Below, in pieces: positions 31,916 through 49,187 of a stretch of 62,843 nt of DNA; positions within the stretch are counted from its first letter, which is position 1; each line of letters begins with the position of its first letter. The notes beneath the pieces were generated by a model. The model had not been told where the DNA came from and did no database searches. It saw nothing but the letters and a program-made list of their open reading frames with translations. Made by a program: the position numbers and the translations under genes. The stretch lies in IMG/VR virus record IMGVR_UViG_3300021963_000042, positions 64,001-126,843 of that record; one strand, given 5' to 3'. This DNA is from a virus.

Positions 31916-31923
31916 GTCCCGCA

Positions 31924-32276: not shown

Positions 32277-32281
32277 TATAA

Positions 32282-32977: not shown

Positions 32978-32983
32978 AAACTT

Positions 32984-35049: not shown

Positions 35050-35058
35050 TAAATTTCC

Positions 35059-35304: not shown

Positions 35305-35327
35305 AATATCTCCTTCACCTGTATTTA

Positions 35328-35858: not shown

Positions 35859-35861
35859 AAG

Positions 35862-36011: not shown

Positions 36012-36012
36012 A

Positions 36013-36569: not shown

Positions 36570-37063
36570 GAGCGTAGGGCATCCAGTGCACGAATTTGTA
36601 AAATAGTTGAGTCTAAAATTTTAATTGTGTCTTTAGAGTTCTTGTGCAGAATACCATGACCACCTGCAGTATTGAACGGATCAATACATCCAGCGGAGTC
36701 GTCAATTAAAATTGATGTTTTGTTTGCGAAGTGCGACTTCTCTTGCTTATTCCGAACAAAGTTTGGTTTGTACGGAATGTTGTGTTTGTTTAACCAATGC
36801 ATCTTTTGCATCTTAGCCTCAGTTCCCTGAATAGGGTCGTGAGTGCCCATAGAAGTTAGAATTTGAACATCTACTCCATGCAGTCTAGAAACGTGGTTTA
36901 ACAACTCTCTGGCGTCTGGCATAAATTCCAGATCTTCAAAGATTTTATGAATAAAGACCGCATCACGAAATTTCTTTCGATCGGCTTTATCTGGGTCAAT
37001 TGCTCTGTATGCTTTGTCAAAGTTGCAAAGCACGCCATCCATGTCTAGGTATAGTGTAATCAT
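36566..37063 (-). CDS. HAD-family 5'(3')-deoxyribonucleotidase-like phosphatase
   Basis: 165 aa from ATG 37063, immediately after a strong promoter -10; a longer start would lie in the -10 box. The catalytic motif LYLDMDGVLCNFDKAY (D-x-D) is at the N-terminus, with VQILTSMGTHD and SILIDDSAGCIDPF later, as in 5'-nucleotidases. Probably dephosphorylates dNMPs during nucleotide recycling. Confidence 0.82.
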   Translation of the reverse strand: MITLYLDMDGVLCNFDKAYRAIDPDKADRKKFRDAVFIHKIFEDLEFMPDARELLNHVSRLHGVDVQILTSMGTHDPIQGTEAKMQKMHWLNKHNIPYKPNFVRNKQEKSHFANKTSILIDDSAGCIDPFNTAGGHGILHKNSKDTIKILDSTILQIRALDALRS

Positions 37064-37069
37064 AGTATA

Positions 37070-37098
37070 ATTATACTCCAAATGTGAATAAATGTCAA
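37070..37098 (-). promoter_or_regulatory. Consensus sigma70 promoter
   Basis: TTGACA (37098-37093), 17 bp, TATAAT (37075-37070), minus strand. The HAD ATG is only seven bases past the -10, so its transcript is nearly leaderless. Confidence 0.9.
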
Positions 37099-37105
37099 GT
37101 TATAT

Positions 37106-37834
37106 TTACCAATACATGTAACTAGCCGAACCCTTTGTTACAATATGTCCTTGTATTGTTATTCGGCTATCGTTAAAATAAGAAGACTTTCCAACTCTAT
37201 GTAAATATCTACCATCAGCAAGAATCATATCGCCCAAAGAATATTTTATTGTAGAATATTCCTTTAAATTGCAATCGCATTCATCGTTACGGAGACCATG
37301 ATGTTTTCTGCAATAATACTCGGGCTGGTCTTTATATTCAGATTTGGTTTCAGTATAGTAGTCATATGTAAAGTCACCTTCACTTAGCATTATAGTGAAA
37401 GTAACCCAACGATCAAAGTATTTTGTATTGTTGTAATCAGGGAATGCTAATTTATATGGATAACGCAATTTCTCGTCATCATAATGCCATACTCTCGGAG
37501 TTTCCTGTTCAACAATCTGGAATCCAGGAATAGAAAACCCTTTGATATATTTAATTCCATCAAAGACTAATGATAGCTTCTGAATTAAAAATTCTTTGTA
37601 ATAATCAGAAGATATGTCTTCCGTACTATTATACAATTTTAATGCAGCGTTAAGATTAAAATTTGTAGAAATTAAATGTCTAAAATAACTATTACCATAA
37701 ACCTTTATAGCTGATGTGGAAGGAACATCTTTAAAATCAGGATATTCTTTCCACTTATCCGTATTAGATAGTGCCAAGTTTTTTAGACTATCACATTCTT
37801 CTAAACTTAAAAAGTTTCTATAAAGGGTAATCAT
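37106..37834 (-). CDS. 2OG-Fe(II) oxygenase-like protein
   Basis: 242 aa. The WHYDDEKLRYPYKLAF segment supplies the H-x-D iron ligands, and YLHRVGKSSYFNDSRITIQG gives the distal His and the 2-oxoglutarate-binding Arg. Enzymes of this fold hydroxylate proteins, nucleic acids or small molecules. Base composition is more AT-rich than neighbours. Substrate unknown. Confidence 0.75.
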   Translation of the reverse strand: MITLYRNFLSLEECDSLKNLALSNTDKWKEYPDFKDVPSTSAIKVYGNSYFRHLISTNFNLNAALKLYNSTEDISSDYYKEFLIQKLSLVFDGIKYIKGFSIPGFQIVEQETPRVWHYDDEKLRYPYKLAFPDYNNTKYFDRWVTFTIMLSEGDFTYDYYTETKSEYKDQPEYYCRKHHGLRNDECDCNLKEYSTIKYSLGDMILADGRYLHRVGKSSYFNDSRITIQGHIVTKGSASYMYW

Positions 37835-37836
37835 TA

Positions 37837-38193
37837 TTATTTGATGTATTTACTCATATCGGGTGGTTGCCAACCCTCAGGTTTCAAAATTTTACCATCT
37901 TCACGACGACGAACCTTGCCAGTAACAGGGTCTACCTTCGCCATGTTTGTTTTAACAACTTCGTCCCATGCACCAGCGACATTATATCCTTTCATGTGAC
38001 AGAATCCAAGGATAACCCAAATCATGTCCATGCACGCATCGAGAGATTCGACCTCATCCATAGCTGCACGAGCATCACGAAATTCGTTGTACTCTTCAAT
38101 AATAAGATTATGATAAAGTGTAGCATTAGACTCAGAAGGTTTCTGGTCGCATGCTTGCTGAAACAAAAGTACGTCTAGTGGCATTCCCATCAT
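37837..38193 (-). CDS. MazG-like nucleotide pyrophosphohydrolase
   Basis: 118 aa. Metal-binding helices LIIEEYNEFRDARAAMDEVE and ESLDACMDMIWVILGF give the E-x-x-E...E-x-x-D pattern of the MazG/all-alpha NTP pyrophosphatase superfamily. It may remove non-canonical NTPs or lower alarmone levels. Overlaps the next gene by four bases. Confidence 0.82.
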   Translation of the reverse strand: MMGMPLDVLLFQQACDQKPSESNATLYHNLIIEEYNEFRDARAAMDEVESLDACMDMIWVILGFCHMKGYNVAGAWDEVVKTNMAKVDPVTGKVRRREDGKILKPEGWQPPDMSKYIK

Positions 38194-38447
38194 TTGTTCC
38201 TCTCAGTGTCAAAGTAAGATTCGTGGTGTTGTAAATCTAGTCCATCGAAGTTTACGTCTGGTGTCCAAGGTTCATCACTAACAAACTCTAAGTTCCCATC
38301 AGTAACAAATCCTGTTCCACGCAAAAATAATTCCAAGTGTTCAAGAATCTCTGGCAAGTAATCGCAGTAGAATTCATAATTAACTTTAGTTCCGTCGGGG
38401 TTGCCTTGCAAATCAGTATGCTCAGCGATAAGTGTAAATTTCGGCAT
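38190..38447 (-). CDS. Conserved small acidic phage protein
   Basis: 85 aa: MPKFTLIAEHTDLQGNPDGT and YLPEILEHLELFLRGTGFV. Typical T4-like accessory protein with a beta-alpha pattern, function unknown. Its stop and the MazG start overlap. Confidence 0.65.
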   Translation of the reverse strand: MPKFTLIAEHTDLQGNPDGTKVNYEFYCDYLPEILEHLELFLRGTGFVTDGNLEFVSDEPWTPDVNFDGLDLQHHESYFDTERNK

Positions 38448-38626
38448 TAGTCTTGCTCCTGTAATGTCAATTTAAGTTTTTCAATCTTTTCCCTAAGCTG
38501 CCAGTTTTCTTCTTCTAATTTCATAACTTGTCCAAAAAGGAAAGCCACTGCTTCTTCGATTTCATCTGGACAAATTTTATTCTTAATGTCTTCAACTCTG
38601 CTTTGCATTTTCTGATGTGTCAGCAT
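38447..38626 (-). CDS. Small coiled-coil protein
   Basis: 59 aa: MLTHQKMQSRVEDIKNKICP then AVAFLFGQVMKLEEENWQLR and a Leu/Glu/Lys heptad end. Stop overlaps the next ATG by one base, the start overlaps the previous gene by 35 bases. Function unknown. Confidence 0.6.
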   Translation of the reverse strand: MLTHQKMQSRVEDIKNKICPDEIEEAVAFLFGQVMKLEEENWQLREKIEKLKLTLQEQD

Positions 38627-38795
38627 CTTTTTTCCTTAAAGTCCAAGAACCATTTTTGTTGTCAATCCATTCAAGGACGTCACCATTCTTCCAGCCAGCA
38701 GATTCTAAAATTTCATCAGTGAATGGCAGAACCAGATCACCACTACCATCATCTGCTTCCTCAAGTGTGATAATCCAACTTTTGTTTTCAGTCAT
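38592..38795 (-). CDS. AbrB/SpoVT-like small protein
   Basis: 67 aa: WIITLEEADDGSGDLVLPFT, LESAGWKNGDVLEW and GSWTLRKK. This beta-hairpin pattern (LP..IL...GW..GD.L.W) is that of AbrB-type swapped-hairpin DNA-binding proteins and is common in phages. A regulatory role is inferred. Confidence 0.68.
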   Translation of the reverse strand: MTENKSWIITLEEADDGSGDLVLPFTDEILESAGWKNGDVLEWIDNKNGSWTLRKKDADTSENAKQS

Positions 38796-39129
38796 AATTT
38801 ATCTCCAACCAATTAGTGTCTTGCGGTAGAATTTCAATAGTGATGCCATGTTGCTTTGATCGTTCAATCATACCATCAAGAACACCACCACCATACATGT
38901 TGGTGCCATAACAGTCTTTATGACATTCATAAACAGAACCAGAACTACCCTCGAAGGAATAAACGAATCCCTCGAGAGTAGCCTTAGTGATACCACTGTT
39001 TAATTTCCAAGAATCAGAACCTGCATAACCACCATACCAGCAAGCAAAAATTTTGTATACTGGTGTGGGATGATCTTTGTAGCCACTAATCTTGACACCT
39101 ACCCATTTATCTGGACGATACATACTCAT
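38788..39129 (-). CDS. Conserved phage protein
   Basis: 113 aa: MSMYRPDKWVGVKISGYKDH, KIFACWYGGYAGSDSWKLNS and SGSVYECHKDCYGTNMYGGG. The YKIFACWYGGYxGxxSWKLNSGI pattern is shared by several phage proteins; no function assigned. Confidence 0.65.
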   Translation of the reverse strand: MSMYRPDKWVGVKISGYKDHPTPVYKIFACWYGGYAGSDSWKLNSGITKATLEGFVYSFEGSSGSVYECHKDCYGTNMYGGGVLDGMIERSKQHGITIEILPQDTNWLEINYD

Positions 39130-39989
39130 AATTCAATCACCTTCAATGTAAAGTTATCCGCAATGTCTTCGTGACCATCGTAACCACGTGGATTGCAAAC
39201 GACACGAGTACTACCAATCATATAATCAAACAACTCATGAGTATGGCCATGTGTCCACAGTTTAATTCCTGGTCGTTCCAAAATAAACTCAGTAAGGTCG
39301 CTGTGATATCCACCATTCATAATTTGGTCATCTTTGTAACGAGGATGACACGAAACATGAGAAGGTGTATGGTGACCAACAACTACTACGCTCTTCCAAG
39401 GTGGCGTATCAGCGTAAACTGTCTTGATATAATCCAGACATTTCTTGTGTTCTTCAACAGCGTCTTCAGGGCAGAAGATTGCTTCACGTGTATGAAACTT
39501 ACCTTCGGTATCTCTGAAGTTTACCACACGATTAGAGTTCTTGACGATACGGAAGTCGTTCATCATACGCTTCATCGCATGCAACGTAATTGGGTCTTCT
39601 TTGTTCATATCAGTCCACAAAGTAGAACCAATAAACCGAACATCGCCAAGATCAAACACTTCACGATCGAGGATGTGAAGGTTTTCGTGATGCGCAAGTT
39701 TACGCTTCAATTCATTGAGTGTGTGCGCAAAGTCACCATGGTAATGCTCATGATTACCAGCAACGTAAATTACGTGGGGAAATTGAAAACAAACACGATT
39801 GAAGAAGTCGTGAAAACGCTGTGAACGAGCACGTGCGAAACCCAGTTCTTCTTGACGACGATCGTACATATCCAAGTCACGTTCGACAAGGATGTCACCT
39901 GACAAAATCAACACATCGATGTTGTCTTCGTTTTTTATAAACAGATCCCCAAACTCTAAGTGGAGGTCTGAACAGATTGCAATCTTCAT
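39126..39989 (-). CDS. Calcineurin-like metallophosphoesterase
   Basis: 287 aa from ATG 39989 (MKIAICSDLHLEFGD). All metallophosphoesterase motifs are present: SDLHLEF, LSGDILVERD, YVAGNHEHYHGD, VVGHHTPSHVS and WTHGHTHELFDY. Binds two metal ions; substrate may be a nucleotide, RNA or protein phosphate. It follows the promoter at 40019-40047 and overlaps the next gene by four bases. Confidence 0.88.
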   Translation of the reverse strand: MKIAICSDLHLEFGDLFIKNEDNIDVLILSGDILVERDLDMYDRRQEELGFARARSQRFHDFFNRVCFQFPHVIYVAGNHEHYHGDFAHTLNELKRKLAHHENLHILDREVFDLGDVRFIGSTLWTDMNKEDPITLHAMKRMMNDFRIVKNSNRVVNFRDTEGKFHTREAIFCPEDAVEEHKKCLDYIKTVYADTPPWKSVVVVGHHTPSHVSCHPRYKDDQIMNGGYHSDLTEFILERPGIKLWTHGHTHELFDYMIGSTRVVCNPRGYDGHEDIADNFTLKVIEL

Positions 39990-40018
39990 AGGTATTCTCT
40001 CAAATTTTTTATAATACA

Positions 40019-40047
40019 ATTATACCTGAAAACAAGATTAATGTCAA
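40019..40047 (-). promoter_or_regulatory. Consensus sigma70 promoter
   Basis: TTGACA (40047-40042), 17 bp, TATAAT (40024-40019), minus strand, reading into the metallophosphoesterase gene. The -35 box overlaps the end of the 74-aa gene upstream. Confidence 0.88.
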
Positions 40048-40268
40048 GCCTTATTCAACATATATTTCTGCAAAACTATTTTTGCAATTTCATAATCTTT
40101 AGTTTTCTCTAAATGCTCATCGATGTAAGTGTCAAGTAATTCTTGAAGAGCAACCTTGTGTGTATACATCGCTGCCAGTTTTTCTGGCGTCAACTCGATA
40201 AAGGGTTCAACTGAAATTGGTTCCCACTGTCCAGTTACACGATTGTATTTAAATTTGTAGATGTTCAT
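40044..40268 (-). CDS. Small phage protein
   Basis: 74 aa: MNIYKFKYNRVTGQWEPISV then helical charged sequence. No domain recognised. Overlaps the HAD-like gene by four bases, consistent with coupled translation. Confidence 0.6.
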   Translation of the reverse strand: MNIYKFKYNRVTGQWEPISVEPFIELTPEKLAAMYTHKVALQELLDTYIDEHLEKTKDYEIAKIVLQKYMLNKA

Positions 40269-40582
40269 GGCATATAGATCTTTCCATCGTTATGTTCAAC
40301 TTCGATACCACGAACAATCATATCTGGCGTGTCGTCAATCCAAACATGAATGTTAATGTTATTAGCGTACATATATGCACGTTTACCTTGCATGGCAGTG
40401 AAGTAGCAGTTACCCACACCAACAACTTTACCGATAGAATCTAAAACTTCTGGATCGTAGCTATGTGAACGTGCTGTGACACAATACACCTTGTGACCAC
40501 TTAGTTGAGCCAGACGAATAAACTTGTCCCACATCTGCGGATCACGTGTATATGTGTCATCAAAATCAATTGCTATGTTCAT
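40265..40582 (-). CDS. HAD-like hydrolase, short form
   Basis: 105 aa. N-terminal NIAIDFDDTYTRDPQMWDKF (D-x-D) and HVWIDDTPDMI, the first and last HAD motifs, with HKVYCVTARS in between. Short phage HAD proteins of this type are sometimes linked to nucleotide or RNA end phosphate removal; substrate unknown. Confidence 0.75.
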   Translation of the reverse strand: MNIAIDFDDTYTRDPQMWDKFIRLAQLSGHKVYCVTARSHSYDPEVLDSIGKVVGVGNCYFTAMQGKRAYMYANNINIHVWIDDTPDMIVRGIEVEHNDGKIYMP

Positions 40583-40700
40583 TTTTAATCGCTTTCTGTT
40601 GCGCTTTACGCTCTTTCTTCCAGAAGATTCTCTTCCAGTCTTTTAGATGTTTCCACCATTGAGGACTCTTAGTCAGATTCCCTTGTTTTACGTTCGCCAT
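40566..40700 (-). CDS. Small Lys/Trp-rich protein
   Basis: 44 aa: MANVKQGNLTKSPQWWKHLK then DWKRIFWKKERKAQQK. Very basic with five Trp residues. The QGNLTKSPQWWKHL beginning resembles small proteins in other T4-like phages. Overlaps both neighbours (17 and 32 bases). May bind nucleic acid or membranes. Confidence 0.62.
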   Translation of the reverse strand: MANVKQGNLTKSPQWWKHLKDWKRIFWKKERKAQQKAIKNEHSN

Positions 40701-40917
40701 ATAGTTCTCCACCAAAATCTTCTAAAACTTTATTCAGTCGTTTAACACGTACAATGTTACCTGCAACGTCTTCAGGATGTAACCAATAACCATCGGGATT
40801 ATCATCGCTCTTTGGATTAGCAGTCCACTGATCCAGCTCAGACTGCAGATAATCTCGATACTCAGTCAAAGTCAACCGAGTGATGTTGTTACATGTATCC
40901 ATATCTAAAGTAATCAT
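40669..40917 (-). CDS. Small phage protein
   Basis: 82 aa, charged and helical: LTLTEYRDYLQSELDQWTAN and GNIVRVKRLNKVLEDF. No domain recognised. Four-base overlap with the upstream gene. Confidence 0.6.
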   Translation of the reverse strand: MITLDMDTCNNITRLTLTEYRDYLQSELDQWTANPKSDDNPDGYWLHPEDVAGNIVRVKRLNKVLEDFGGELYGERKTRESD

Positions 40918-41255
40918 CGTGACACCCTCAATTCTGCATCTGGATTATCCCAGCATGCGTTACGATATTTGTAAACAAAATTTACTAACCCATCATACGA
41001 ACCCCAACCATTCTCGGGATTATACTGTTTCAATCTTTCTGGTTCAGCCAGCAGAATATTAAACCCAAGATCAAGATACTCAGAGATATCCTTGGCAAAT
41101 TTAAAACCACATTCTTCTGGACGCCACATAACATCATACAAAGTTAAGTGTCCACCAAAATTAACTTCTCGAGCCATGGTGGTAAGATTGTGAGTAATGT
41201 TACCACTATAAACAGACACTGGTTGGGTCACCATTAAATCAACATCTAAACTCAT
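40914..41255 (-). CDS. Conserved phage protein (MSLDVDL type)
   Basis: 113 aa from ATG 41255, just one base past the aldolase stop; longer frames only duplicate the aldolase end in another frame. Contains THNLTTMAREVNFGGHLTLY and GLVNFVYKYRNACWDNPDAE. Phage proteins with this pattern are common, without a known role. Confidence 0.68.
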   Translation of the reverse strand: MSLDVDLMVTQPVSVYSGNITHNLTTMAREVNFGGHLTLYDVMWRPEECGFKFAKDISEYLDLGFNILLAEPERLKQYNPENGWGSYDGLVNFVYKYRNACWDNPDAELRVSR

Positions 41256-41256
41256 A

Positions 41257-41880
41257 TTATACTCCTGAAGCCAACACAATCTTACATATATGCTCAAGTC
41301 GTTCAATATGCTCATAAGCACGCCATGGCGAGGTATCAATAGCCACTACTCCGTGTCCTTTAATTCCAACAATATCGTACGCAATATTACCGTGTTCATC
41401 TAGTTCTAGATTTCTAAAGCAACTATCTGCCAATTCCTGAGAGATAGGCGGAACATCACCAACATTGGGTGCTACCCGAGTATAACGATTTAGTTCTGGG
41501 AACGCATCACTAATGGTTGAGAGATCGATGCCCCGATGCATTGCTGCAATACAGTAAGTGGGGTGAACATGAACCACCACTCGAACATCATTACTATGTT
41601 GCCCCATGTTTCTCTGTAGACCAAAGTGTAAGGGGATCTCTCCGCTGGGCTTTAGATTCTTACTGATGTCAGTATATGGTAAGTCCAACCAATTGTCATT
41701 GACCTTGGAAAATGCAATCTTTTTAAACTGATCGGGTTGTAGAGTCTGCTTACGCACACCACTGGGTGTGATATAAAAGTGATCTCGATCGTGGTGACGA
41801 ATACTTACGTTACCATCACGAGAGGTGATCCAGTTACGCTTGTATGCATCTTCCAGCACTTCACAAATAGTTTCTAACAT
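41257..41880 (-). CDS. Class II aldolase/adducin-family enzyme
   Basis: 207 aa, whole-domain length. Motifs: ITSRDGNVSIRHHD, YITPSGVRKQTL, LKPSGEIPLHFGLQR (Glu), VVHVHPTYCIAAMHRG (His-x-His) and IVGIKGHGVVAIDTS (third His). The zinc ligands and catalytic Glu of L-fuculose-phosphate aldolase/methylthioribulose-phosphate dehydratase are all kept, so it should be active. It may act on a sugar phosphate or in methionine salvage. An unusual metabolic gene for a phage. Confidence 0.85.
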   Translation of the reverse strand: MLETICEVLEDAYKRNWITSRDGNVSIRHHDRDHFYITPSGVRKQTLQPDQFKKIAFSKVNDNWLDLPYTDISKNLKPSGEIPLHFGLQRNMGQHSNDVRVVVHVHPTYCIAAMHRGIDLSTISDAFPELNRYTRVAPNVGDVPPISQELADSCFRNLELDEHGNIAYDIVGIKGHGVVAIDTSPWRAYEHIERLEHICKIVLASGV

Positions 41881-41939
41881 TTACGTTTAATCCTTAATAC
41901 TAATCCAACCATCAATACAATAAAAAGTAGTGTAATCAT
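41874..41939 (-). CDS. 21-residue membrane microprotein
   Basis: MITLLFIVLMVGLVLRIKRK then Cys: one membrane helix and a basic tail. ATGA overlap with the upstream gene and seven-base overlap with the aldolase start. Very short, so moderate confidence. Confidence 0.45.
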   Translation of the reverse strand: MITLLFIVLMVGLVLRIKRKC

Positions 41940-42349
41940 TCTAAGTCCCTGCCTTCAAAAATATAGTGTCCGCCACGTCGACTCTGCACCCAAGTGATAC
42001 TCCAGATCATCCAGTTTTCCTGCATGGCTCGAATGATACTTTCGTTGCCAGACCAACCTGCAGTGGAGATATCATAGCGATAAACCTTCTTATCCTTGTC
42101 CCATTCATGGTCTTCCTCACCCTCATGCCATCCCCAAGAACGTAGATGCCAAATGCTGTTGATAAACTTAAACCAACCCTCAATATCGCTCCAGTGCCAC
42201 TTCTCAATGATCTCCAGAGCAGCGTCGGTGGGGTAGCCGTCGTCATCTAAAAAGTCACCTTCCTCCAGAAGCGAAGCGACTCGCTGTGCATTCTGCATAT
42301 CCTCAGCAGCCACACGGGCACGCACCTGCTCCATATCAATTTTCGTCAT
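41936..42349 (-). CDS. Conserved phage protein, Trp-rich
   Basis: 137 aa: an acidic helical start (MEQVRARVAAEDMQ), then IIEKWHWSDIEGWFKFINSI and YDISTAGWSGNESIIRAMQE with WVQSRRGGHYIFE. The STGGWSGNE-like motif is widespread in phage hypothetical proteins. Function unknown. Confidence 0.68.
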   Translation of the reverse strand: MTKIDMEQVRARVAAEDMQNAQRVASLLEEGDFLDDDGYPTDAALEIIEKWHWSDIEGWFKFINSIWHLRSWGWHEGEEDHEWDKDKKVYRYDISTAGWSGNESIIRAMQENWMIWSITWVQSRRGGHYIFEGRDLE

Positions 42350-42521
42350 CTTCTCTCTCCACGAAGTGGATTTCGGCGAGGAGAGTTACGTCGTACAACT
42401 CCAGCAAATCCAGATCACTCAGGTTTTCCATTTCCTCGAAAGTCATCGAGTGAATTTCCAGCAGACTTTCCTCATCATAAGCAAAGCACAGATATTCAAT
42501 AATCAATTCACGTAAAGTCAT
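42336..42521 (-). CDS. Small acidic protein
   Basis: 61 aa from ATG 42521 (MTLRELIIEYLCFAYDEESL), very acidic. This start overlaps the stop of the microprotein upstream (ATGA). Longer starts use the frame of that microprotein. Function unknown. Confidence 0.58.
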   Translation of the reverse strand: MTLRELIIEYLCFAYDEESLLEIHSMTFEEMENLSDLDLLELYDVTLLAEIHFVEREDDEN

Positions 42522-42619
42522 TCTACAATCCAAAGTATAATATTTGCAATAATGCTGAGAGCAATCGTAAGGAACACTCCAAACCAAATCGCACTCCAAA
42601 GTCTGCTCAAAATCGTCAC
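42518..42619 (-). CDS. 33-residue membrane microprotein, GTG start
   Basis: GTG at 42619, RBS-like AGGTGG upstream. Sequence (M)TILSRLWSAIWFGVFLTIA then LSIIANIILWIVE: one long membrane helix. Four-base overlaps at both ends tie it to its neighbours. Confidence 0.48.
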   Translation of the reverse strand: MTILSRLWSAIWFGVFLTIALSIIANIILWIVE

Positions 42620-42753
42620 GAAGCCACCTGCTTAATAAACTCAATTATCATCTGCACATCTGACGGATCCAAGTGTAACCTGTGAGCAATCTCGATAAAA
42701 TCCAGATGTCGATCCATCAACTCTTTTACTTGCAAAACCCAATATCTGTTCAT
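42616..42753 (-). CDS. Small helix-turn-helix-like protein
   Basis: 45 aa: MNRYWVLQVKELMDRHLDFI then EIAHRLHLDPSDVQMIIEFI. The IEIAHRLHLDPSDV segment looks like a helix-turn-helix. RBS AGGGGGA. Overlaps the GTG microprotein by four bases. A small regulator is possible. Confidence 0.55.
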   Translation of the reverse strand: MNRYWVLQVKELMDRHLDFIEIAHRLHLDPSDVQMIIEFIKQVAS

Positions 42754-42802
42754 AGTAATTTCCCCCTATACAACTAAAACGTCTGAGGAGTCCCTACAGT
42801 TG

Positions 42803-42907
42803 TCACTTAAAACAATTATACACGAAAAACCCAATAAAGGCAAATTCCAGGAGTCCCGCTACAACCATTACTGCAATGTTCTGCCAAGTCCAATCAGTGT
42901 AAATCAT
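42803..42907 (-). CDS. 34-residue membrane microprotein
   Basis: MIYTDWTWQNIAVMVVAGLL then EFAFIGFFVYNCFK: a single membrane helix. Starts four bases or so after a GGGACTCC element and contains another inside its frame. Real translation is inferred from the RBS pattern. Confidence 0.5.
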   Translation of the reverse strand: MIYTDWTWQNIAVMVVAGLLEFAFIGFFVYNCFK

Positions 42908-42919
42908 AGCGGAGTCCCG

Positions 42920-43018
42920 TTAAACCACCAATAAAAACAGTAAAAATGCCAGAATAGGATGACCAGTCATTATTAGGAATAATGCCACAATACACCCAAA
43001 GAATGCTCGATCATCCAT
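42920..43018 (-). CDS. 32-residue membrane microprotein
   Basis: MDDRAFFGCIVALFLIMTGH then PILAFLLFLLVV: two short hydrophobic stretches. ATG one base after a GGGACTCC element; its stop is followed by the next copy. Confidence 0.5.
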   Translation of the reverse strand: MDDRAFFGCIVALFLIMTGHPILAFLLFLLVV

Positions 43019-43027
43019 AGGAGTCCC

Positions 43028-43183
43028 TTACTTAAATGATGCCATCCACTCTAAAAGAATAGCCTTAGCTTCTTGTCGAGAAAGACTGAAAGATTGCTGC
43101 AGGTAAGGCGATGCGCCAAACATGTTGGTTACGCCAGAGTCCCGAAGGGCATTTAGAAATTGAAAATAAACTTGCTTATTCAT
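43028..43183 (-). CDS. Conserved 51-residue phage protein
   Basis: MNKQVYFQFLNALRDSGVTN then MFGASPYLQQSFSLSRQEAK and LLEWMASFK. This pattern (F...LR.SG.TNMFGA.PYL...F.L...EA...L..WM.SF) is conserved in many phages. Preceded by GGGACTCC and followed by one directly after its TAA. Function unknown. Confidence 0.75.
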   Translation of the reverse strand: MNKQVYFQFLNALRDSGVTNMFGASPYLQQSFSLSRQEAKAILLEWMASFK

Positions 43184-43380
43184 GATAGGAGTCCCTTAAA
43201 AAGATGTTAGTGAGAAAAACGGAGTCCCGTGGTGAAACGGAGTCCCTTAAATGCGGACGGAGTCCCTTAGTTTAAATGATGATGGTGGTTTATAAGTCTG
43301 AGCCATACAGGCGAAAAGGGGACCCATGAATTTTAGTCACGTTTTAGAACCCCTACCCCCTAGTCACACTTGGCTCATAC

Positions 43381-43593
43381 TCAGTACATACTCAGCACCT
43401 CAGCTGCTTCTGCGAAACCTTCGTTCTCTACAATTTCATCAATCTCTGCAATTGCAATCATTGATTCCAGCAATTCAATTTCCTGCTGATTCTGTGTACT
43501 CTTCCATTCCATGTACTCAGCATATCCATCTATTGCCCACATTGTATCCAGCAATTCCACCTGTCGAGGTGTCAGTCCATCAATTGTAATCAT
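43381..43593 (-). CDS. Conserved small acidic phage protein
   Basis: 70 aa: MITIDGLTPRQVELLDTMWA then IELLESMIAIAEIDEI. The DGLTPxQVxLLDxMWxID pattern is frequent in T4-like phages; function unknown. It overlaps the next gene by four bases. Confidence 0.72.
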   Translation of the reverse strand: MITIDGLTPRQVELLDTMWAIDGYAEYMEWKSTQNQQEIELLESMIAIAEIDEIVENEGFAEAAEVLSMY

Positions 43594-43808
43594 AGTGATT
43601 CTCCATAGTGTATAGCATCGGCATCTGCAGACTCATCTGCATAGGTGTGTTGTTGGATGATTTTATTCCATCGTTCTTCCACCACATAGTTCACATAGTC
43701 CACTGGACAGTCCAATGTGGTTGCAATAGATGCACAGTCCATAGTGGTGTTATCCAACATCCTCTCTATGTATGGTATCAGCATGTGTATCTCAGACATT
43801 TTACTCAT
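43590..43808 (-). CDS. Small phage protein with HTH-like centre
   Basis: 72 aa: IPYIERMLDNTTMDCASIAT then TLDCPVDYVNYVVEERWNKI. The central segment looks like a helix-turn-helix. MSKMSE gives a second possible start (MSEIHM). Function unknown. Confidence 0.6.
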   Translation of the reverse strand: MSKMSEIHMLIPYIERMLDNTTMDCASIATTLDCPVDYVNYVVEERWNKIIQQHTYADESADADAIHYGESL

Positions 43809-43859
43809 TGTTCACTCTCTCTATACAGGGGTAGTGGAGGAGACCCCCCCCCTTAGGGT

Positions 43860-44798
43860 TTAGGCTGTAAGCATGTAGGTGGCGAGGTCTTTCCAGTCGC
43901 TGTTAGAAGCACGAACCTTGGATACAGAGATCAGGGTACGCAGAGACAGTTCTTTGCAGTCATCCTTGATTTCACGAATCAGAGCCAGTGCATCTGCAAT
44001 AATAGCCTTGTCATACTCAGGCATGAATTCAGGTGAATTTGCAATAGTCTCCATACGGTCGATTTTCTGATCCGTATTCATGGACAGGTCGATCATCATA
44101 GAACGACTACGAATGGCTTGGTCAATACGACCCTCATCCATGTTAGAGATGAAAATCACACGACCTTCGAAGTTGAACGAACGAGGCAGATCGTCGTCAC
44201 GCATATCAGCATTCCAGCTAATGATACGCTTACCGTAGCTGTCCAGAGCACCCTTCAACAGATTGAGGGCAACTGGGTCACGCAACACAGCGTCGCAGTC
44301 ATCGAACACCACGATGGATTTGTTGTTTTCGAACAGAGTACGGTACAGACCCTTAGCCGTAGAGAAACCCTTCACCATGGTGAAACACTTGCTCTTACGG
44401 ACAACAGTGCCGACTTGAAAGTCAGCCAGATCAGAGATGTCGGTATAGCCGTTGTTTTCCAAGGTTTTGGTCACAGTGTAAGTCTTACCCAGACCACCAG
44501 CACCAGTGATGACGGCAGAGGGCTGAACACCAGCAGCAACCATGGAAACCAACTTTTCCACGAACGAGAAACGCTGATTGATATTGAATTTCTCAGACTT
44601 GCTAGGCTCGATGGCAGCAGCAGAGCCCATGATCTTAGCGAAGTCAACTTTCTTACCAGTCAACTTCTTGTAGTGGAATTCAACGACTTCCTCAAGACCA
44701 CGACCAGACTTGCCAGTGGTCACTTTCTTGTCACCAAACATGATGACAGACTTACCAGAGACTTTGTCAGTATCGATCGTGATTTTCAGTTCGTTCAT
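43860..44798 (-). CDS. AAA-family ATPase
   Basis: 312 aa. Walker A ITGAGGLGKTYTVTKTL, Walker B KSIVVFDDCDAVLRD, sensor 1 VIFISNMDEGRID, and an arginine finger-like RSRSMMIDL. The N-terminal 70 residues are unlike known ATPases and may bind a partner. It is the only complete AAA module in the early region and has its own promoter. An unfoldase or remodeller is possible; it is not recognisably ClpX, ClpA or gp44. Confidence 0.8.
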   Translation of the reverse strand: MNELKITIDTDKVSGKSVIMFGDKKVTTGKSGRGLEEVVEFHYKKLTGKKVDFAKIMGSAAAIEPSKSEKFNINQRFSFVEKLVSMVAAGVQPSAVITGAGGLGKTYTVTKTLENNGYTDISDLADFQVGTVVRKSKCFTMVKGFSTAKGLYRTLFENNKSIVVFDDCDAVLRDPVALNLLKGALDSYGKRIISWNADMRDDDLPRSFNFEGRVIFISNMDEGRIDQAIRSRSMMIDLSMNTDQKIDRMETIANSPEFMPEYDKAIIADALALIREIKDDCKELSLRTLISVSKVRASNSDWKDLATYMLTA

Positions 44799-44828
44799 TT
44801 TCAGGTCCTTTTCTCAATTCGTTACACT

Positions 44829-44857
44829 ATTATACGTCGATTGCAATTTATTGTAAA
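44829..44857 (-). promoter_or_regulatory. Sigma70-like early promoter
   Basis: TTTACA (44857-44852), 17 bp, TATAAT (44834-44829), minus strand, upstream of the AAA ATPase. Confidence 0.86.
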
Positions 44858-44875
44858 GGACTTTGTACGACTACC

Positions 44876-44896
44876 GTAACTCGTTGATTTTAAAGG
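44876..44896 (-). repeat. Conserved motif upstream of early promoter, copy 3
   Basis: The GTAACTCGTTGATTTTAAAG motif, followed by G, lies 20 bases upstream of the AAA promoter. The same 15-mer core is at 30341-30355 and, with one change, at 50843-50857, always on the same strand and near a TTTACA-TATAAT promoter. Confidence 0.7.
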
Positions 44897-44902
44897 AGAA
44901 AA

Positions 44903-45052
44903 TTACCCTACAAAGTCGAGGGTTATTCCGTATAGAGGGGTTTCAGAGTGCCATTTCAGCCACTTTTGGACGATTTTTAGGGCTTCAGACTCATCTTTAG
45001 CCATAAATTCATAGACTTGGCTCAGTTCAGTAGTAATTTTTACAGACCACAT
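44903..45052 (-). CDS. Small phage protein between two early promoters
   Basis: 49 aa: MWSVKITTELSQVYEFMAKD then ESEALKIVQKWLKWHSETPL. RBS AGGAGA nine bases upstream and a good promoter 25 bases further. The last codons overlap a CCCTAC...AGGGT stem. Function unknown. Confidence 0.62.
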   Translation of the reverse strand: MWSVKITTELSQVYEFMAKDESEALKIVQKWLKWHSETPLYGITLDFVG

Positions 45053-45076
45053 CAGGGTTTCTCCTAAAAGAGGTCT

Positions 45077-45105
45077 ATTTTACAGGAATTCAGTATTTTT
45101 GTAAA
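45077..45105 (-). promoter_or_regulatory. Sigma70-like early promoter
   Basis: TTTACA (45105-45100), 17 bp, TAAAAT (45082-45077), minus strand, driving the 49-aa gene. The rest of the 45106-45195 gap holds only a weaker TTTACA-like box and AT-rich sequence. Confidence 0.75.
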
Positions 45106-45195
45106 GGACTAATTCACTCTCGATCAACCCTTACACCGTAATTCTACCTGATTGTAAAATAAATTTCAAATATTTCGGAGTTCAAACCCTTGCAA

Positions 45196-45534
45196 TCAGT
45201 CCACCTCTCGCCACAAGTCACCACCAGCCACGAAAGTTCCGTCTGGCTGGTCACTTTTCATTGGAGGCAAGTACAAATCCTCTGGGTCGACTACTTGTTC
45301 CTCAGGTATATCAGCCAGTTTCGCCTTCTCACGTAGCTTGAAACCCTCAGCATTCTTCCAGTTCGTCTCGGTGCGCTTACCCAGTAGATGTGTGGCACTC
45401 TGAGAGTGACTCATCTTCGCTCTTGTCGTGTCCGTGACCACACGTGCCTTGTTCGAGCATACCTTTGAGCAGTAAGGTCCACGCTTTTTATGGATGTCTG
45501 AGCAGACTGGACAGGTTTTTTGTTTGTATGTCAT
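45196..45534 (-). CDS. Zinc-finger phage protein
   Basis: 112 aa. A four-Cys N-terminal finger: KTCPVCSDIHKKRGPYCSKV then CSNKAR. The rest is Lys-rich and ends with a Pro/Asp segment (EDLYLPPMKSDQPDG). Similar finger proteins occur in many phages; a nucleic-acid role is inferred. Confidence 0.68.
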   Translation of the reverse strand: MTYKQKTCPVCSDIHKKRGPYCSKVCSNKARVVTDTTRAKMSHSQSATHLLGKRTETNWKNAEGFKLREKAKLADIPEEQVVDPEDLYLPPMKSDQPDGTFVAGGDLWREVD

Positions 45535-45593
45535 ACGAAAGATGAGTAGACGAACAACACATTACTTTTTCGGCACATCCGTTCACTCCCTCA

Positions 45594-45806
45594 CTAAATA
45601 GGCACACAGCGTAGCCATAGTTCTCTCTCCACTATCCTTACACGTTTATCTTTCAGACCACTGGACGAGAGAGCATACCAATCTTCTCCTCGCTCTATCC
45701 ATAACTCTTCGTCCCACTCTTCAGCGGTATCATCTATCTTACCGTTACACCAGACTTTCACTGGAATATTCTTTGTAACTCCAAAGATTGTATATGGCTT
45801 TTTCAT
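45594..45806 (-). CDS. Small phage protein
   Basis: 70 aa, beta-rich: MKKPYTIFGVTKNIPVKVWC and EEWDEELWIERGEDWYALSS. No domain recognised. Four-base overlap with the next gene upstream. Short gap 45535-45593 shows nothing. Confidence 0.58.
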   Translation of the reverse strand: MKKPYTIFGVTKNIPVKVWCNGKIDDTAEEWDEELWIERGEDWYALSSSGLKDKRVRIVERELWLRCVPI

Positions 45807-46003
45807 CTCAGATCTGGTTCTTTCTCATAGCAGCTAAGACACACGGCATCATACCTTGGTCCACTATTAGGACTGATCGCTCCATTGCAGTACTTACAGA
45901 GAATAAACGCATGGGTTACGATAGATCCTTTTGGAGCACTGTACATTGGATAGAAACCTTCTTCTCTCTCTGTATAGCCTATAAGAGTTCTTTCTGTAAT
46001 CAT
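45803..46003 (-). CDS. Small zinc-ribbon-like protein
   Basis: 66 aa with ILCKYCNGAISPNSGPRYDA then VCLSCYEKEP: two C-x-x-C pairs as in zinc ribbons. Overlaps the GGQ gene by four bases. A nucleic-acid or protein-binding adaptor is possible. Confidence 0.62.
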   Translation of the reverse strand: MITERTLIGYTEREEGFYPMYSAPKGSIVTHAFILCKYCNGAISPNSGPRYDAVCLSCYEKEPDLR

Positions 46004-46374
46004 CTTGTTGCCTTTGCTCTTGCCTCAATCATTGATTCCATCTCACCCTTGATAACTACATTGGTATAGGTATCTTGCAAACCACTCGCATGGTCTGTCA
46101 CTCGATTGTCTGGCTCATGGTATGTTCGAATACGTTCTGTACCTGCCAGGAATCGTTCCTTGTCCTTTGTAAATTTTGCAACCACACGGGACAGGCAGGT
46201 AACATAGGCGACTTTCTTATTATCCTCACGACTACGACTGGTCTGACCAGTGGCTATGATTCCAGTTGGCTCATGGATACAACGGCAGCAGTTCTGGTGT
46301 TTGTTGCGATGTTGACCACCTCCACCAGTTCCACTGAACCATTCATATCTAAATTGATCTTCGGTTACTTTCAT
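46000..46374 (-). CDS. Stand-alone release-factor GGQ domain protein
   Basis: 124 aa equal to domain 3 of class I release factors. FSGTGGGGQHRNKHQNCCRC holds the GGQ loop that triggers peptidyl-tRNA hydrolysis, followed by IHEPTGIIATGQTSRSREDN and RIRTYHEPDNRVTDH as in RF1/RF2. The codon-reading domains are absent, as in ArfB/YaeJ. No clear ArfB C-terminal basic tail, though the end is RAKATR. It may rescue ribosomes or cut peptidyl-tRNA, complementing the phage tmRNA. Confidence 0.82.
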   Translation of the reverse strand: MKVTEDQFRYEWFSGTGGGGQHRNKHQNCCRCIHEPTGIIATGQTSRSREDNKKVAYVTCLSRVVAKFTKDKERFLAGTERIRTYHEPDNRVTDHASGLQDTYTNVVIKGEMESMIEARAKATR

Positions 46375-46637
46375 TGTAGCAGCGCTTTCATTGCATTTTC
46401 TATACGTTCATGACACATTCTTGCAGCGTGTAGAGGGGTTGGTTGATTGAATTCAGATGCTACGTCGAATTGTGTTCCCTTGGTGTTTGTGTTCATTTCA
46501 ACTTTGCAATACCAGCCACCATCATGCAGTGACAGTCTTGGTCTGCCGTAACGAATCATATGTAGTAACAGCTCTTCCAGATTCATGTTCTCCAGCCGAG
46601 TTGCCTCATCGGTTTCAGGTTTCTTCACAAGCCACAT
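46371..46637 (-). CDS. Conserved phage protein
   Basis: 88 aa: LEELLLHMIRYGRPRLSLHD, GGWYCKVEMNTNTKGTQFDV and PLHAARMCHERIENAM. Beta-alpha pattern found in many phages (GGWYCxVE). Function unknown. Overlaps the upstream gene by 13 bases. Confidence 0.66.
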   Translation of the reverse strand: MWLVKKPETDEATRLENMNLEELLLHMIRYGRPRLSLHDGGWYCKVEMNTNTKGTQFDVASEFNQPTPLHAARMCHERIENAMKALLQ

Positions 46638-46858
46638 TCTGTTTTCCTCTTTCCAAATTCGTCAGTTTCTTCCGCCCAGTGAATGGTGCACCAGTCGTCT
46701 ATGCAATCTTGGAATGTATGAACCTCTGGGTCTTTTCCAGCCTTGTACATTCTGTCACACCAGTAATCCCAGTACGCTTCCAGGATTTGCTCAGTGCTCC
46801 AGGTTTCTTGCACGTGCTGACCAAACTCACCTGGGAATACGATGGTGTAATACTTCAT
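46625..46858 (-). CDS. Conserved phage protein, Trp-rich
   Basis: 77 aa: MKYYTIVFPGEFGQHVQETW then STEQILEAYWDYWCDRMYKA. The pattern YTIVFPGExGxxVxETWxxEQIL is shared by T4-like phages. Function unknown. Confidence 0.68.
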   Translation of the reverse strand: MKYYTIVFPGEFGQHVQETWSTEQILEAYWDYWCDRMYKAGKDPEVHTFQDCIDDWCTIHWAEETDEFGKRKTECGL

Positions 46859-47139
46859 ACCTTTGACTTCAGATCCTTGTAGATTTTACCCAGCGCAGGG
46901 TTGACGTTCACGCTTGCCAGCATCAGTGCTTCCACTATTTGTAGAATGTCTGGTCTGCCCATCCAGTTACCACAGAACACACCATGCGGATCTCGGTGAC
47001 CACGCAACACATCAGGGTGAGACACGTAAACATAGTCAGACATGCTCAGGCTGGTGTTGCTTGGGTACTTTTTACCCAGATCGTTGATGATCCAGTAGTT
47101 GGCTTCGTGTGAAGTTCCTGCAACAACAAATGTTTTCAT
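46855..47139 (-). CDS. Conserved phage protein
   Basis: 94 aa: MKTFVVAGTSHEANYWIIND, DYVYVSHPDVLRGHRDPHGV and FCGNWMGRPDILQIVEAL. The fold looks like a small nucleotide-binding Rossmann-like domain, but no motif confirms it. Confidence 0.63.
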   Translation of the reverse strand: MKTFVVAGTSHEANYWIINDLGKKYPSNTSLSMSDYVYVSHPDVLRGHRDPHGVFCGNWMGRPDILQIVEALMLASVNVNPALGKIYKDLKSKV

Positions 47140-47140
47140 A

Positions 47141-47278
47141 TCAGTATGGCTGGGGTTTGACTTCTTGTTGCTGCTCCAGCAGTTGTACCAAACGATTGAC
47201 TCTTTGCAATAATTCGATTTGCGCCTGCAGCACCATCAGTTCCAGCTGTTCCTTTGGTATGGTTACTTCATCTTCCAT
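47141..47278 (-). CDS. Small coiled-coil protein
   Basis: 45 aa: MEDEVTIPKEQLELMVLQAQ then IELLQRVNRLVQLLEQQQ, a leucine-heptad helix. It fills the gap between two genes with no room to spare. RBS is weak. Function unknown. Confidence 0.55.
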   Translation of the reverse strand: MEDEVTIPKEQLELMVLQAQIELLQRVNRLVQLLEQQQEVKPQPY

Positions 47279-47308
47279 TTTTACACCACTGTGTTTTCAG
47301 TGAACGCA

Positions 47309-47617
47309 TCATATATTCCCCAATCCTATACGGCTATATCCAAGTTTGCTCTTAATGTCTTTGTGGTCTCTATTCTTTTCTGGCTTCCATGATCTGGGGT
47401 CAACTGTTTCGCCAGTAAGCACATATCGAAAGTCAGGATCATAGACCATACGACCTCCCATATTCCACAGGGGTTCACCATTGTATGGAAATATACAACC
47501 ACGGCACATGCACCAACTCCAACCTCGATCAGTCATCACATTACCATTGACTGTACCAACGTATTTGACCACATTACCTTTATGCATTTCTCTGATAGCT
47601 TCGTGATAGTCAATCAT
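47309..47617 (-). CDS. Conserved phage protein (topoisomerase-unrelated)
   Basis: 102 aa from ATG 47617, which overlaps the upstream stop by four bases; an ATG nine codons earlier is in the neighbour. Contains IDYHEAIREMHKGNVVKYVG and TDRGWSWCMCRGCIFPYNGE with a C-M-C-x-x-C cluster. Function unknown. Confidence 0.6.
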   Translation of the reverse strand: MIDYHEAIREMHKGNVVKYVGTVNGNVMTDRGWSWCMCRGCIFPYNGEPLWNMGGRMVYDPDFRYVLTGETVDPRSWKPEKNRDHKDIKSKLGYSRIGLGNI

Positions 47618-47901
47618 AGACCACTCACTTTCTTCACCTGCCATGAGTGGCTAGTTCCACGAATTCCATCATCATATTGTAACACCAAGTTTCCCCAGAA
47701 CGACTCGGGATAATCAAATTGTAGAGTCTGACGAATCACAGTTGCTTCTTGTCGCATGGGATGTACATAGACTCGATCTCCAGTATGAAACTCTGGACCA
47801 CGACCATCGCTGTCAATCTCGCAAATGCAAGCATCAAACTCTGGATCGTCTTGGTCGATCTCCATAAAATCCCACTCTTTGCAAAAATGTCTGTAGTTCA
47901 T
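47614..47901 (-). CDS. Small phage protein with SH3-like end
   Basis: 95 aa from ATG 47901. Acidic start (EIDQDDPEFDACICEIDSDG) and a C-terminal HTGDRVYVHPMRQEATVIRQ, WGNLVLQYDDGIRGTSHSWQ, which looks like an SH3-like beta barrel. Function unknown. Confidence 0.58.
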   Translation of the reverse strand: MNYRHFCKEWDFMEIDQDDPEFDACICEIDSDGRGPEFHTGDRVYVHPMRQEATVIRQTLQFDYPESFWGNLVLQYDDGIRGTSHSWQVKKVSGL

Positions 47902-48311
47902 CACCAGTGCTCGTATTTCTCCAATGCGTTAATCACATCAGTTAATGCTTTCCGATCAAACGTAAGGTAGATACCACGATCGAACATGTTATCATACTTG
48001 TGTAAACGCAGTTTAATCAGTTCACCATCAGCAATCACAGACAAGTAAGGTTTGCCACTTGGACCATTGATAGTGGTCATCGGGATCTCACGATATTCTT
48101 CAGTGTCGTCCTCTTGTTGTTCAGCGCCAGCAATGATGTTACGTAGCGTCTCTTGACGATCTGCCTTGCGAGTCCAGAAGGTACAAGAATCGTCAACAAA
48201 ATAATCTTCCTGCTCCATACCGTGCTCATCACAATATGGATGATTACCAGCAAACTGCGTGTGTCGAGTACACGTTGCTGGCTTATCACATTCAATACAT
48301 GTTTCTATCAT
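47901..48311 (-). CDS. Cys/His-finger phage protein
   Basis: 136 aa. N-terminal MIETCIECDKPATCTRHTQF then AGNHPYCDEHGM gives a CxxC...C...H...CxxH zinc cluster. The C-terminal half is a different beta domain (YLSVIADGELIKLRLHKYDN). Function unknown. Confidence 0.62.
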   Translation of the reverse strand: MIETCIECDKPATCTRHTQFAGNHPYCDEHGMEQEDYFVDDSCTFWTRKADRQETLRNIIAGAEQQEDDTEEYREIPMTTINGPSGKPYLSVIADGELIKLRLHKYDNMFDRGIYLTFDRKALTDVINALEKYEHW

Positions 48312-48481
48312 TTTGTGCTACCACCATAGACTTGTGATTCCAACTGACGTATTCGTTCGTGAGCCAGCGCCAGCTGAATCTCGAGTTCTTGCAGCGACCT
48401 TGCCATGTGTAGGATCGCTTCGTTTTCTTGTTGCTCCACTGTCTTGTAAGTCTGGAATGCGTAGTTACGCTTATCAGACAT
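48308..48481 (-). CDS. Small coiled-coil protein
   Basis: 57 aa from ATG 48481 (MSDKRNYAFQTYKTVEQQEN), start overlapping the upstream stop (ATGTCTGA). Contains HMARSLQELEIQLALAHERI, a coiled coil. An ATG 21 bases earlier is possible. Function unknown. Confidence 0.55.
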   Translation of the reverse strand: MSDKRNYAFQTYKTVEQQENEAILHMARSLQELEIQLALAHERIRQLESQVYGGSTK

Positions 48482-48665
48482 ATTCATCGATGTTTTGTCC
48501 ATTTGTATTCAACTCCCTGTTACGTTCAATTCGTTTCAATCTTTCCATCTCAACTCGCTCTCTTGCAAGTCGTTCATCGTTTAGTCGTGCCTCATGCATT
48601 CTATCAACACGACGATGATAAAGCACCTCAAAGTATTCGTGCATACGTTTGATAGCTGGTATCAT
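48474..48665 (-). CDS. Small Arg/Glu-rich coiled-coil protein
   Basis: 63 aa: MIPAIKRMHEYFEVLYHRRV then RLARERVEMERLKRIERNRE. Long charged helix. Overlaps both neighbours by 4-8 bases. Function unknown. Confidence 0.55.
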   Translation of the reverse strand: MIPAIKRMHEYFEVLYHRRVDRMHEARLNDERLARERVEMERLKRIERNRELNTNGQNIDEYV

Positions 48666-48838
48666 GACATATCCCTAACAGGTTTCCAGTTATCCCACTC
48701 GCACGCTTTCATGTGGCTCAACCAATCGTACGCAGATCCTTCGTTAGTGAAAGTTGGACCTATCTGAACCTCATCGATGTTTACCCAGAAGTAAATGTAA
48801 TCTTTCATGTGCGCATCTCTATACTGAATCAGTTTCAT
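48662..48838 (-). CDS. Small phage protein
   Basis: 58 aa from ATG 48838 (MKLIQYRDAHMKDYIYFWVN), start overlapping the microprotein stop. Contains NIDEVQIGPTFTNEGSAYDW. Function unknown. Confidence 0.55.
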   Translation of the reverse strand: MKLIQYRDAHMKDYIYFWVNIDEVQIGPTFTNEGSAYDWLSHMKACEWDNWKPVRDMS

Positions 48839-48915
48839 AGGTCGTCCCTGTTCGAAATTGCCCACAGCAACCACACGAATAAAACGAACAGTATAAAGAT
48901 GGCGATGTAAGTCAT
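48835..48915 (-). CDS. 26-residue membrane microprotein
   Basis: MTYIAIFILFVLFVWLLWAI then SNRDDL: one membrane helix. Four-base overlaps with both neighbours (AATGA and CTATGA). Confidence 0.48.
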   Translation of the reverse strand: MTYIAIFILFVLFVWLLWAISNRDDL

Positions 48916-49187
48916 TCTGCTACTAGTCCATTGCTATGTTTGTCTCTGGTTGTTTCCATGTCTTGGAAGTTCTTTTGCTCTTGGAATGTAAGTTCCTTAA
49001 ACGTCTTACGAGGGTTGCCACACATAACACACTTGGGATTGCCACAAGAAACTGGACTTACCTTTGCCAGTCGATGCTCATCCTTAATCTTCTGCCCTGT
49101 AGATTTTGCGATTCGTGCCTTTCGTTTGATGGTCACTTCCTTCTGCTGGATACGCTTGCTGTGCTTCTCTTTGCTTTCCTGATCCAT
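48912..49187 (-). CDS. Conserved phage protein with CGNPKCxMCGNPR motif
   Basis: 91 aa. Basic N-terminal half, then SCGNPKCVMCGNPRKTFKEL, a conserved Cys motif found in a widespread phage family, and TFQEQKNFQDME. Likely zinc-binding. It overlaps the upstream membrane gene by 104 bases, unusually long. Confidence 0.72.
   Translation of the reverse strand: MDQESKEKHSKRIQQKEVTIKRKARIAKSTGQKIKDEHRLAKVSPVSCGNPKCVMCGNPRKTFKELTFQEQKNFQDMETTRDKHSNGLVAE

Follow-up and report, generated by a model that had tools for sequence, protein, structure and literature searches.

What does a single eight-letter word do when it occurs eight times, always in one direction, among some of the smallest genes of a virus? 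The stretch of DNA analyzed here (the window; 62,843 bases) is the right part, positions 64001 to 126843, of a 126,843-base IMG/VR virus record. Its genes look like those of a T4-like myovirus-type phage (baseplate hub, tail lysozyme, PhoH-like protein, and exonuclease). We find nine exact copies of GGGACTCC in the window, one on the plus strand (23547) and eight on the minus strand. The latter span exactly 480 bases (42787 to 43266; Table 1), as a first-pass annotation, made from the letters alone, had stated. That annotation had also placed the copies correctly: two exactly between a stop codon and the next ATG (copies 5 and 6), one a few bases before an ATG (copy 4), one within a coding region (copy 7), and three in tandem without genes (copies 1 to 3, where we see no confident gene). 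The eighth copy, which is intergenic, was not placed by it.

Table 1. The octamer array and its neighboring features, in window coordinates.
Feature	Position	Strand	Remarks
GGGACTCC copy 1	43259..43266	-	Tandem, no confident gene; within 26-aa ORF 43247-43327
GGGACTCC copy 2	43239..43246	-	Immediately after the stop codon of the 26-aa ORF
GGGACTCC copy 3	43221..43228	-	Tandem; predicted small hairpin with copy 2, UCCGU-uucacc-ACGGG
GGGACTCC copy 4	43188..43195	-	4 nt before the ATG of the 51-aa gene
GGGACTCC copy 5	43020..43027	-	Junction of 51-aa gene stop and 32-aa gene ATG, 1 nt before the ATG
GGGACTCC copy 6	42911..42918	-	Junction of 32-aa gene stop and 34-aa ORF ATG, 3 nt before the ATG
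GGGACTCC copy 7	42850..42857	-	Within 34-aa ORF, translated G-L-L
GGGACTCC copy 8	42787..42794	-	Intergenic, past the 34-aa ORF
One-mismatch copy GGGACTCT	43136..43143	-	Within the 51-aa gene; absent from the first-pass annotation
Related word GGGTCCCC(TTTT)	43318..43325	-	Carried by six octamer-less relatives at the corresponding place past the ATPase gene; likewise absent from the first-pass annotation
51-aa microprotein gene	43028..43183	-	Relatives in many viral contigs; sub-threshold DUF5049 match
32-aa microprotein gene (MDDRAFF..)	42920..43018	-	Ortholog in L499; same junction in L574 without the gene
34-aa ORF	42803..42907	-	Hydrophobic by eye
ATPase gene, upstream of the array	43860..44798	-	PHROG 1250 of unknown function; anchor for finding relatives

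The copy number lies far beyond that of shuffled DNA. In 100 shuffles of the window, the mean was 0.57 copies and the maximum 4; none of the 100 reached the nine observed, which bears out the earlier judgment that chance occurrence is very unlikely. A count over the whole 126,843-base record gives the same one plus eight copies, with zero in its first half; outside the array the word is infrequent, the record holding one further copy. The spacers between the copies in the window are unrelated to each other. The octamer is also conserved in relatives. Together, the shuffle counts, the whole-record count, and the relatives rule out a chance origin of the array.

We retrieved 77 relatives of the locus, blind to the octamer, through the ATPase gene just upstream of the array, a gene with a weaker clamp-loader match and a sub-threshold AAA match besides its PHROG assignment. 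The octamer is present in 46 of the 77 loci, with 112 copies on the ATPase strand versus one on the opposite strand. Of these 112 copies, 102 lie at most 2.5 kb downstream of the ATPase gene, in 38 loci; when each downstream stretch is counted once, with near-duplicates merged, 30 of 63 carry the octamer. Thirty-nine of the 77 loci have no octamer in the 2.5 kb downstream, a few of them because the locus ends there. Searches of 23 whole records found the octamer in 19 and none in four. Nearly all copies of an array-bearing record sit in one place (e.g., 4 of 4 in a record of 159,683 bases, and 9 of 10, 10 of 10, 10 of 11, and 10 of 12 in others). The exceptions are G008, with 5 of 8 copies in the array place, and G011, G019, and G023, with a few scattered copies.

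Many relatives have one copy in the leader, often followed about 25 to 30 nt later by a TAACCCC-like stretch. The ninth letter after the octamer is T in 21 of 21 aligned leader copies without selection for T, and this letter alone is independent evidence, the alignment being anchored on the exact octamer. Another word, GGGTCCCCT, occurs 245 to 482 nt after the ATPase gene in 6 of 28 octamer-less relatives (L009, L010, L028, L042, L059, and L071), and the window likewise carries it, at 43318 to 43325. The leader-copy surveys, the leader alignment, and the GGGTCCCCT count used at most 61 of the 77 loci, after exclusion by hand of near-duplicates, short ends, and some loci without a set rule; the main strand and position count was repeated on all 77. 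In the form GGGTCCCCT(TTT), this second recurring word downstream of the ATPase gene is found in the window, in the same six relatives, and in L001 and L011; it is also found in the unrelated-looking contig L221. A near-palindromic second word, AGGATTCC(T), stands beside the octamer downstream of the ATPase gene in L002, L003, L006, and L011, and also occurs inside ORFs.

Where the copies sit indicates at what level the word is selected. Among 75 distinct copies (the window plus 13 relatives), 17 have an ATG within 5 nt and 35 lie within an ORF of 30 aa or more; six copies belong to both sets, and 29 to neither. The ORFs used for placement, and for the neighbor counts below, are mechanical, and a few copies counted inside ORFs lie in doubtful ones. 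Copies within ORFs occur in all three frames (14, 12, and 9; or 12, 10, and 7 once the six next to an ATG are set aside) and encode D-S, G-L, or G-T-P depending on frame. Thus, the encoded amino acids cannot explain the word, and selection acts on the nucleic acid. The word is also kept exact: array regions hold 205 exact copies versus 15 one-mismatch copies summed over 24 variants, compared with 7 versus 7 on the opposite strand, a contrast inflated by the choice of clusters with at least three exact copies.

The microgenes between the copies differ among close relatives. In L499, the 32-aa gene of the window sits between two copies, and the junction at copy 5 recurs there. L574 has a single copy at this place, whose left flank matches that of the left copy (identity 0.84) and whose right flank matches that of the right copy (0.75); the wrong flanks give 0.54 and 0.50. 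L574 likewise lacks a 79-aa gene that L499 and L212 have (right flank 0.83, leader stretch 0.76, wrong flank 0.49). At the copy after this gene, identity between L499 and L212 is 0.93 before the copy and 0.50 beyond it, and at copy 6, after the 32-aa gene, identity between the window and L499 drops from 0.70 to 0.54. The latter value is background, random pairs having a mean identity of 0.50 and a maximum of 0.57. These alignments indicate that microgenes are gained, lost, or swapped between close relatives with breakpoints at octamer copies. The breakpoints are consistent with recombination at the copies, and their position is partly forced, since most gaps between these microgenes hold a copy.

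The word does not travel with the family of the 51-aa microprotein. When loci were gathered through that protein instead, once more without regard to the octamer, the best 80 of 188 were kept. Only 3 of these 80 have the octamer within about 3 kb, and 77 have none. Of the 16 forward copies in these three (there are 0 reverse), 15 belong to the relatives L574 and L591 (the latter being the same record as L499). The 51-aa microgene thus does not bring the word along, which rules out that the octamer is tied to this microprotein family. The 188 relatives of the microprotein are in viral contigs; a relative with 39% identity occurs in a Synechococcus phage, represented by two records.

We find arrays in other phage groups as well. 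A scan of viral contigs for three octamer copies with gaps of 5 to 35 yielded 117 stretches, of which 24 were AT-rich and non-tandem by the filters used, versus 1 of 120 for the reversed word (among the matches listed). In bacterial genomes, 74 stretches had three copies of GGGACTCCT, and none of the 74 was AT-rich and non-tandem; all were tandem by the filter used. The non-tandem phage arrays come from several groups, one having T4-like baseplate genes and others a T4-type terminase, and the arrays precede unrelated genes. Records of other phages, picked for having arrays, mostly have them in one place each (G046 and G049 have two).

To describe these arrays, we use 54 distinct clusters, each non-tandem by the filter used, with at least three exact copies and local GC below 0.5; several come from the same phage families, and the 54 are not independent. 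The exactness count above and the 59 stem-loop spacers below rest on clusters picked in the same way. Over their 219 copies, the word extends to GGGACTCCTA, with T next in 86% and then A in 74%. Start-to-start spacing peaks at 17 to 22 nt, in scans that favored short gaps. The right-hand gene has the orientation of the array in 40 of 52 clusters and the opposite one in 12 of 52; both neighboring genes are opposite in 8 of 54. Of 49 last copies, 23 have the start of an ORF of 40 aa or more within 60 nt, compared with 42 of 152 other copies and 338 of 1080 random points. Within 25 nt, a TATAWA box follows 12 of 49 last copies, 14 of 152 others, and 15 of 1080 random points. At the other end, CAGT occurs within 16 nt of 13 of 59 first copies (the number kept after deduplication) versus 2 of 143 other copies, and ACCGGAAAATTTCGCG or close variants precede the first copy in one phage group, as judged by eye.

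Some single arrays deserve description. In L126, the array closes with an 11-bp inverted repeat, GGGACTCCTAA..TTAGGAGTCCC (5321-5348); both flanking ORFs there are opposite to the array, and the repeat could terminate a separate small RNA. Directly after the array in L158 (about 6845-9041) are ORFs that we take to be ferredoxin-like, IscU- and IscA-like, and tubulin/FtsZ-like. The ORF adjoining the array at L133 5622-5999 presumably resembles aspartate decarboxylase (PanD), and the same applies to L163 and L187; the ORF has a sense copy of the octamer inside it.

What, then, is the word? Present in both related and unrelated uncultured phages, mostly in one patch, it looks like a genuine control signal where small genes come and go. 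We tentatively favor a strand-specific site that acts in mRNA and binds a putative trans-acting factor, with copies that also serve recombination. GGGACTCC, extended to GGGACTCCTA in the clusters of other phages, would be a strand-specific nucleic-acid signal, most likely acting in mRNA. The leader copy and further copies along the microgene transcript would be the putative binding site of a factor, either a phage or host protein or an RNA, that would control expression of this transcript. A copy 1 to 5 nt before an ATG would supply an ordinary predicted Shine-Dalgarno match. We infer that RNA is the acting form, that the factor binds the word, and that recombination uses the copies as short homologies. 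The gene-less tandem copies of the window would then have been left after cassette loss, and they are most simply read as traces of lost cassettes. In our best reading, the octamer would also be the border and ribosome-binding site of exchangeable microgenes.

This mRNA signal is suggested by the single orientation, the leader position, the use of three frames, the occurrence in several phage groups, and the breakpoints at copies. We count in its favor the strand and position bias in the 77 loci, the mostly single patch per record, the T and A extension, the exactness, and the orientation of the right-hand gene (40 of 52). Against it count the opposite right-hand genes (12 of 52) and the clusters with both neighbors opposite (8 of 54), which it does not predict unless a separate RNA is made. 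The TATAWA boxes after last copies also count against it, as a hint of a promoter-linked DNA site in other groups, as do the 39 of 77 relatives without a copy in the 2.5 kb downstream and the folding of the window region, which is like that of shuffles (z -0.29 for the RNA fold of the whole region).

The main rival is a DNA-level site, bound in double-stranded form by a directional protein: replication-origin iterons, or an operator or activator array beside a promoter. We consider this somewhat unlikely. Iterons and the repressor or stoperator arrays of phages likewise bring together multiple copies of one short word, all in the same direction, and such a site would suit the mostly single patch per record, the same-direction copies with their common spacing of 17 to 22 nt (in scans that favored short gaps), and the AT-rich surroundings, which are a product of selection. 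It would also suit the TATAWA boxes after 12 of 49 last copies, the 8 of 54 clusters whose array runs counter to both flanking genes, and the conserved DNA noted by eye before the first copy in one group. However, 112 of 113 copies in the relatives of the window are on the ATPase strand, copies occur at the start and stop codons of genes, lone leader copies with no array are common, and GC skew of the window, taken in 4-kb steps, makes no turn at the array. Unlike iteron and stoperator arrays, the octamer respects gene strand and start codons in the group of the window. No link of the octamer to a replication or repressor gene is known to us here.

The first-pass annotation had proposed either a target for an RNA-binding regulator of translation, which the word may be, or a mobile ribosome-binding unit that spreads with tiny genes, which would be a pure translation-initiation element of the start-associated-sequence kind. 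The latter is partly supported: microgene differences break at copies, 3 of the 8 copies in the window abut an ATG, and the predicted Shine-Dalgarno energies at element-linked ATGs equal those of normal genes. For a copy 1 to 5 nt before an ATG, the predicted energy averages -5.1 (16 cases, group of the window). The three ATG-adjacent copies of the window itself give -5.2, -5.2, and -4.0, and 35 ATG-adjacent copies, including unrelated GC-rich matches, average -5.2. For comparison, 48 hand-picked window genes give -4.0 and 574 random ATGs give -0.9, in both cases with a 16S end that we assumed. By these predicted energies, the AAGGGA part beside an ATG would suffice for ribosome binding.

Other observations speak against a pure unit of this kind. 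No ATG lies within 5 nt of 58 of the 75 copies, 29 to 35 copies are inside ORFs in all frames, and arrays of at least three copies precede one gene. For the 51-aa microgene, 77 of 80 loci with relatives have no octamer close by, and the arrays of other groups stand before unrelated genes. The CTCC half, moreover, is not explained by pairing to the 16S end. We therefore regard a pure translation element as improbable. We also reject the octamer as a word pairing with rRNA more broadly, on the basis of one E. coli rRNA operon (E. coli is not the host): it offers at most 7 to 8 nt to AAGGGACTCCTA with G-U allowed, and the two tRNAs of the same operon offer no 7-nt pairing to it. GACTCCTA is identical to a stretch of 16S rRNA, which we take as coincidence.

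Start Associated Sequences (SAS/ESAS) are reported from Cluster K mycobacteriophages (PMC3203893) and Cluster EF Microbacterium phages (PMC7302621). According to the available text of these reports, they are 13-bp words (GGGATAGGAGCCC and GGGAAAGGACCCC) with an AGGA core. Those of Cluster K are described there as virtually all within a few nucleotides of a start codon, confined to the non-structural half, linked to different gene families, and of unknown function (PMC3203893). So far as that text allows comparison, both they and the octamer are short, asymmetric, well-conserved words, mostly in one orientation and found at ribosome-binding positions. Unlike the SAS described there, the octamer has 8 to 10 nt and no AGGA core (consensus GGGACTCCTA). 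Most of its copies lie in leaders, tandem arrays, or ORFs, with 3 of 8 adjacent to a start in the window and 17 of 75 overall. Because most copies do not adjoin start codons, we do not place the octamer in the SAS class.

Quite improbable, as a general account, is that the octamer forms the junction of tandem RNA stem-loops, in which UCC(U) would pair with the GGGA of the next copy and the central C would serve as linker. In 59 non-redundant spacers, end extension was 1.92 versus 1.55 after permutation (0 of 500), and minimum free energy (MFE) agreed (0 of 200). The pooled 71 spacers gave 5 of 2000 for extension and 0 of 300 for MFE, and L163, L187, L210, and L212 are striking cases. Twelve spacers from a later scan gave no support, however (z -1.0 and 0.24). 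Spacers longer than 15 nt showed none by extension (443 of 2000) and weak support by MFE (16 of 300), single-position covariation was weak (one of eleven inner positions, at p 0.0025), and most copies of the window are too far apart. We take the pairing as real in some lineages and reject it as the general function, strong as it was in the first 59 spacers and unsupported in the 12 new ones. No known structured RNA family was matched at the array: Rfam models gave nothing there at E up to 1 (window 30000-50000), and in 13 other loci only a tmRNA reached the gathering score. Terminators near the array are at about the shuffled level. Last, chance, or simple tandem duplication without function, is extremely improbable: many public-contig matches to the octamer are indeed GC-rich tandem repeats, but the spacers are unrelated, place and orientation are conserved across relatives, and AT-rich non-tandem arrays are far more frequent for the octamer than for the reversed word among the matches listed (24 of 117 versus 1 of 120).

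The closest parallel for gene exchange at the copies is the promoter early stem-loop (PeSL), a unit of an early promoter plus a stem-loop. The PeSLs of T4-like phages are reportedly due to Arbiol in 2010 and Comeau in 2014. In the available text of one report, these repeated units of T4-like phages are said to mediate gene shuffling (PMC4503421). Measured against that description, the octamer has PeSL-like shuffling in the breakpoints among the window, L499, L574, and L212, which are partly forced by copy density. As to the early promoter, a scan limited to the sigma-70 type found 3 sites in 42400-44000, the shuffled level (3.3 expected). As to the stem-loop, inter-copy hairpins appear in some lineages and once in the window, and not in the held-out 12 spacers.

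The octamer thus works in a mixed way: near starts it is an exact one-way word, and it also forms a border of gene exchange. We find no phage motif of this kind in the literature among the matches listed, which does not prove absence from print, and there is a fair chance that something new is behind it. In its boldest form, possible but doubtful, GGGACUCCU(A) would be the recognition word of a putative new RNA-level control system of distantly related uncultured phages, and here also a microgene-cassette border. Such a word would be exact to the letter, usually with one leader or leader array per genome and a dedicated protein or RNA partner. That phage groups with little else in common have one exact short word suggests a partner conserved in infected cells, or else a regulatory system that travels. 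That partner, once found, would be a handle on gene control in uncultured phages. The microgene borders, in turn, are natural experiments on the acquisition and loss of tiny genes by phages.

Two other features of the window lie outside the array. A phage tmRNA gene at 32618-33006, with the tag ANDSVYALAA, scores above the gathering score with two tmRNA models, the permuted and the betaproteobacterial one, a hint that the host is a betaproteobacterium or something similar. A class II aldolase/adducin-type protein (Pfam Aldolase_II) is encoded at 41257-41880.
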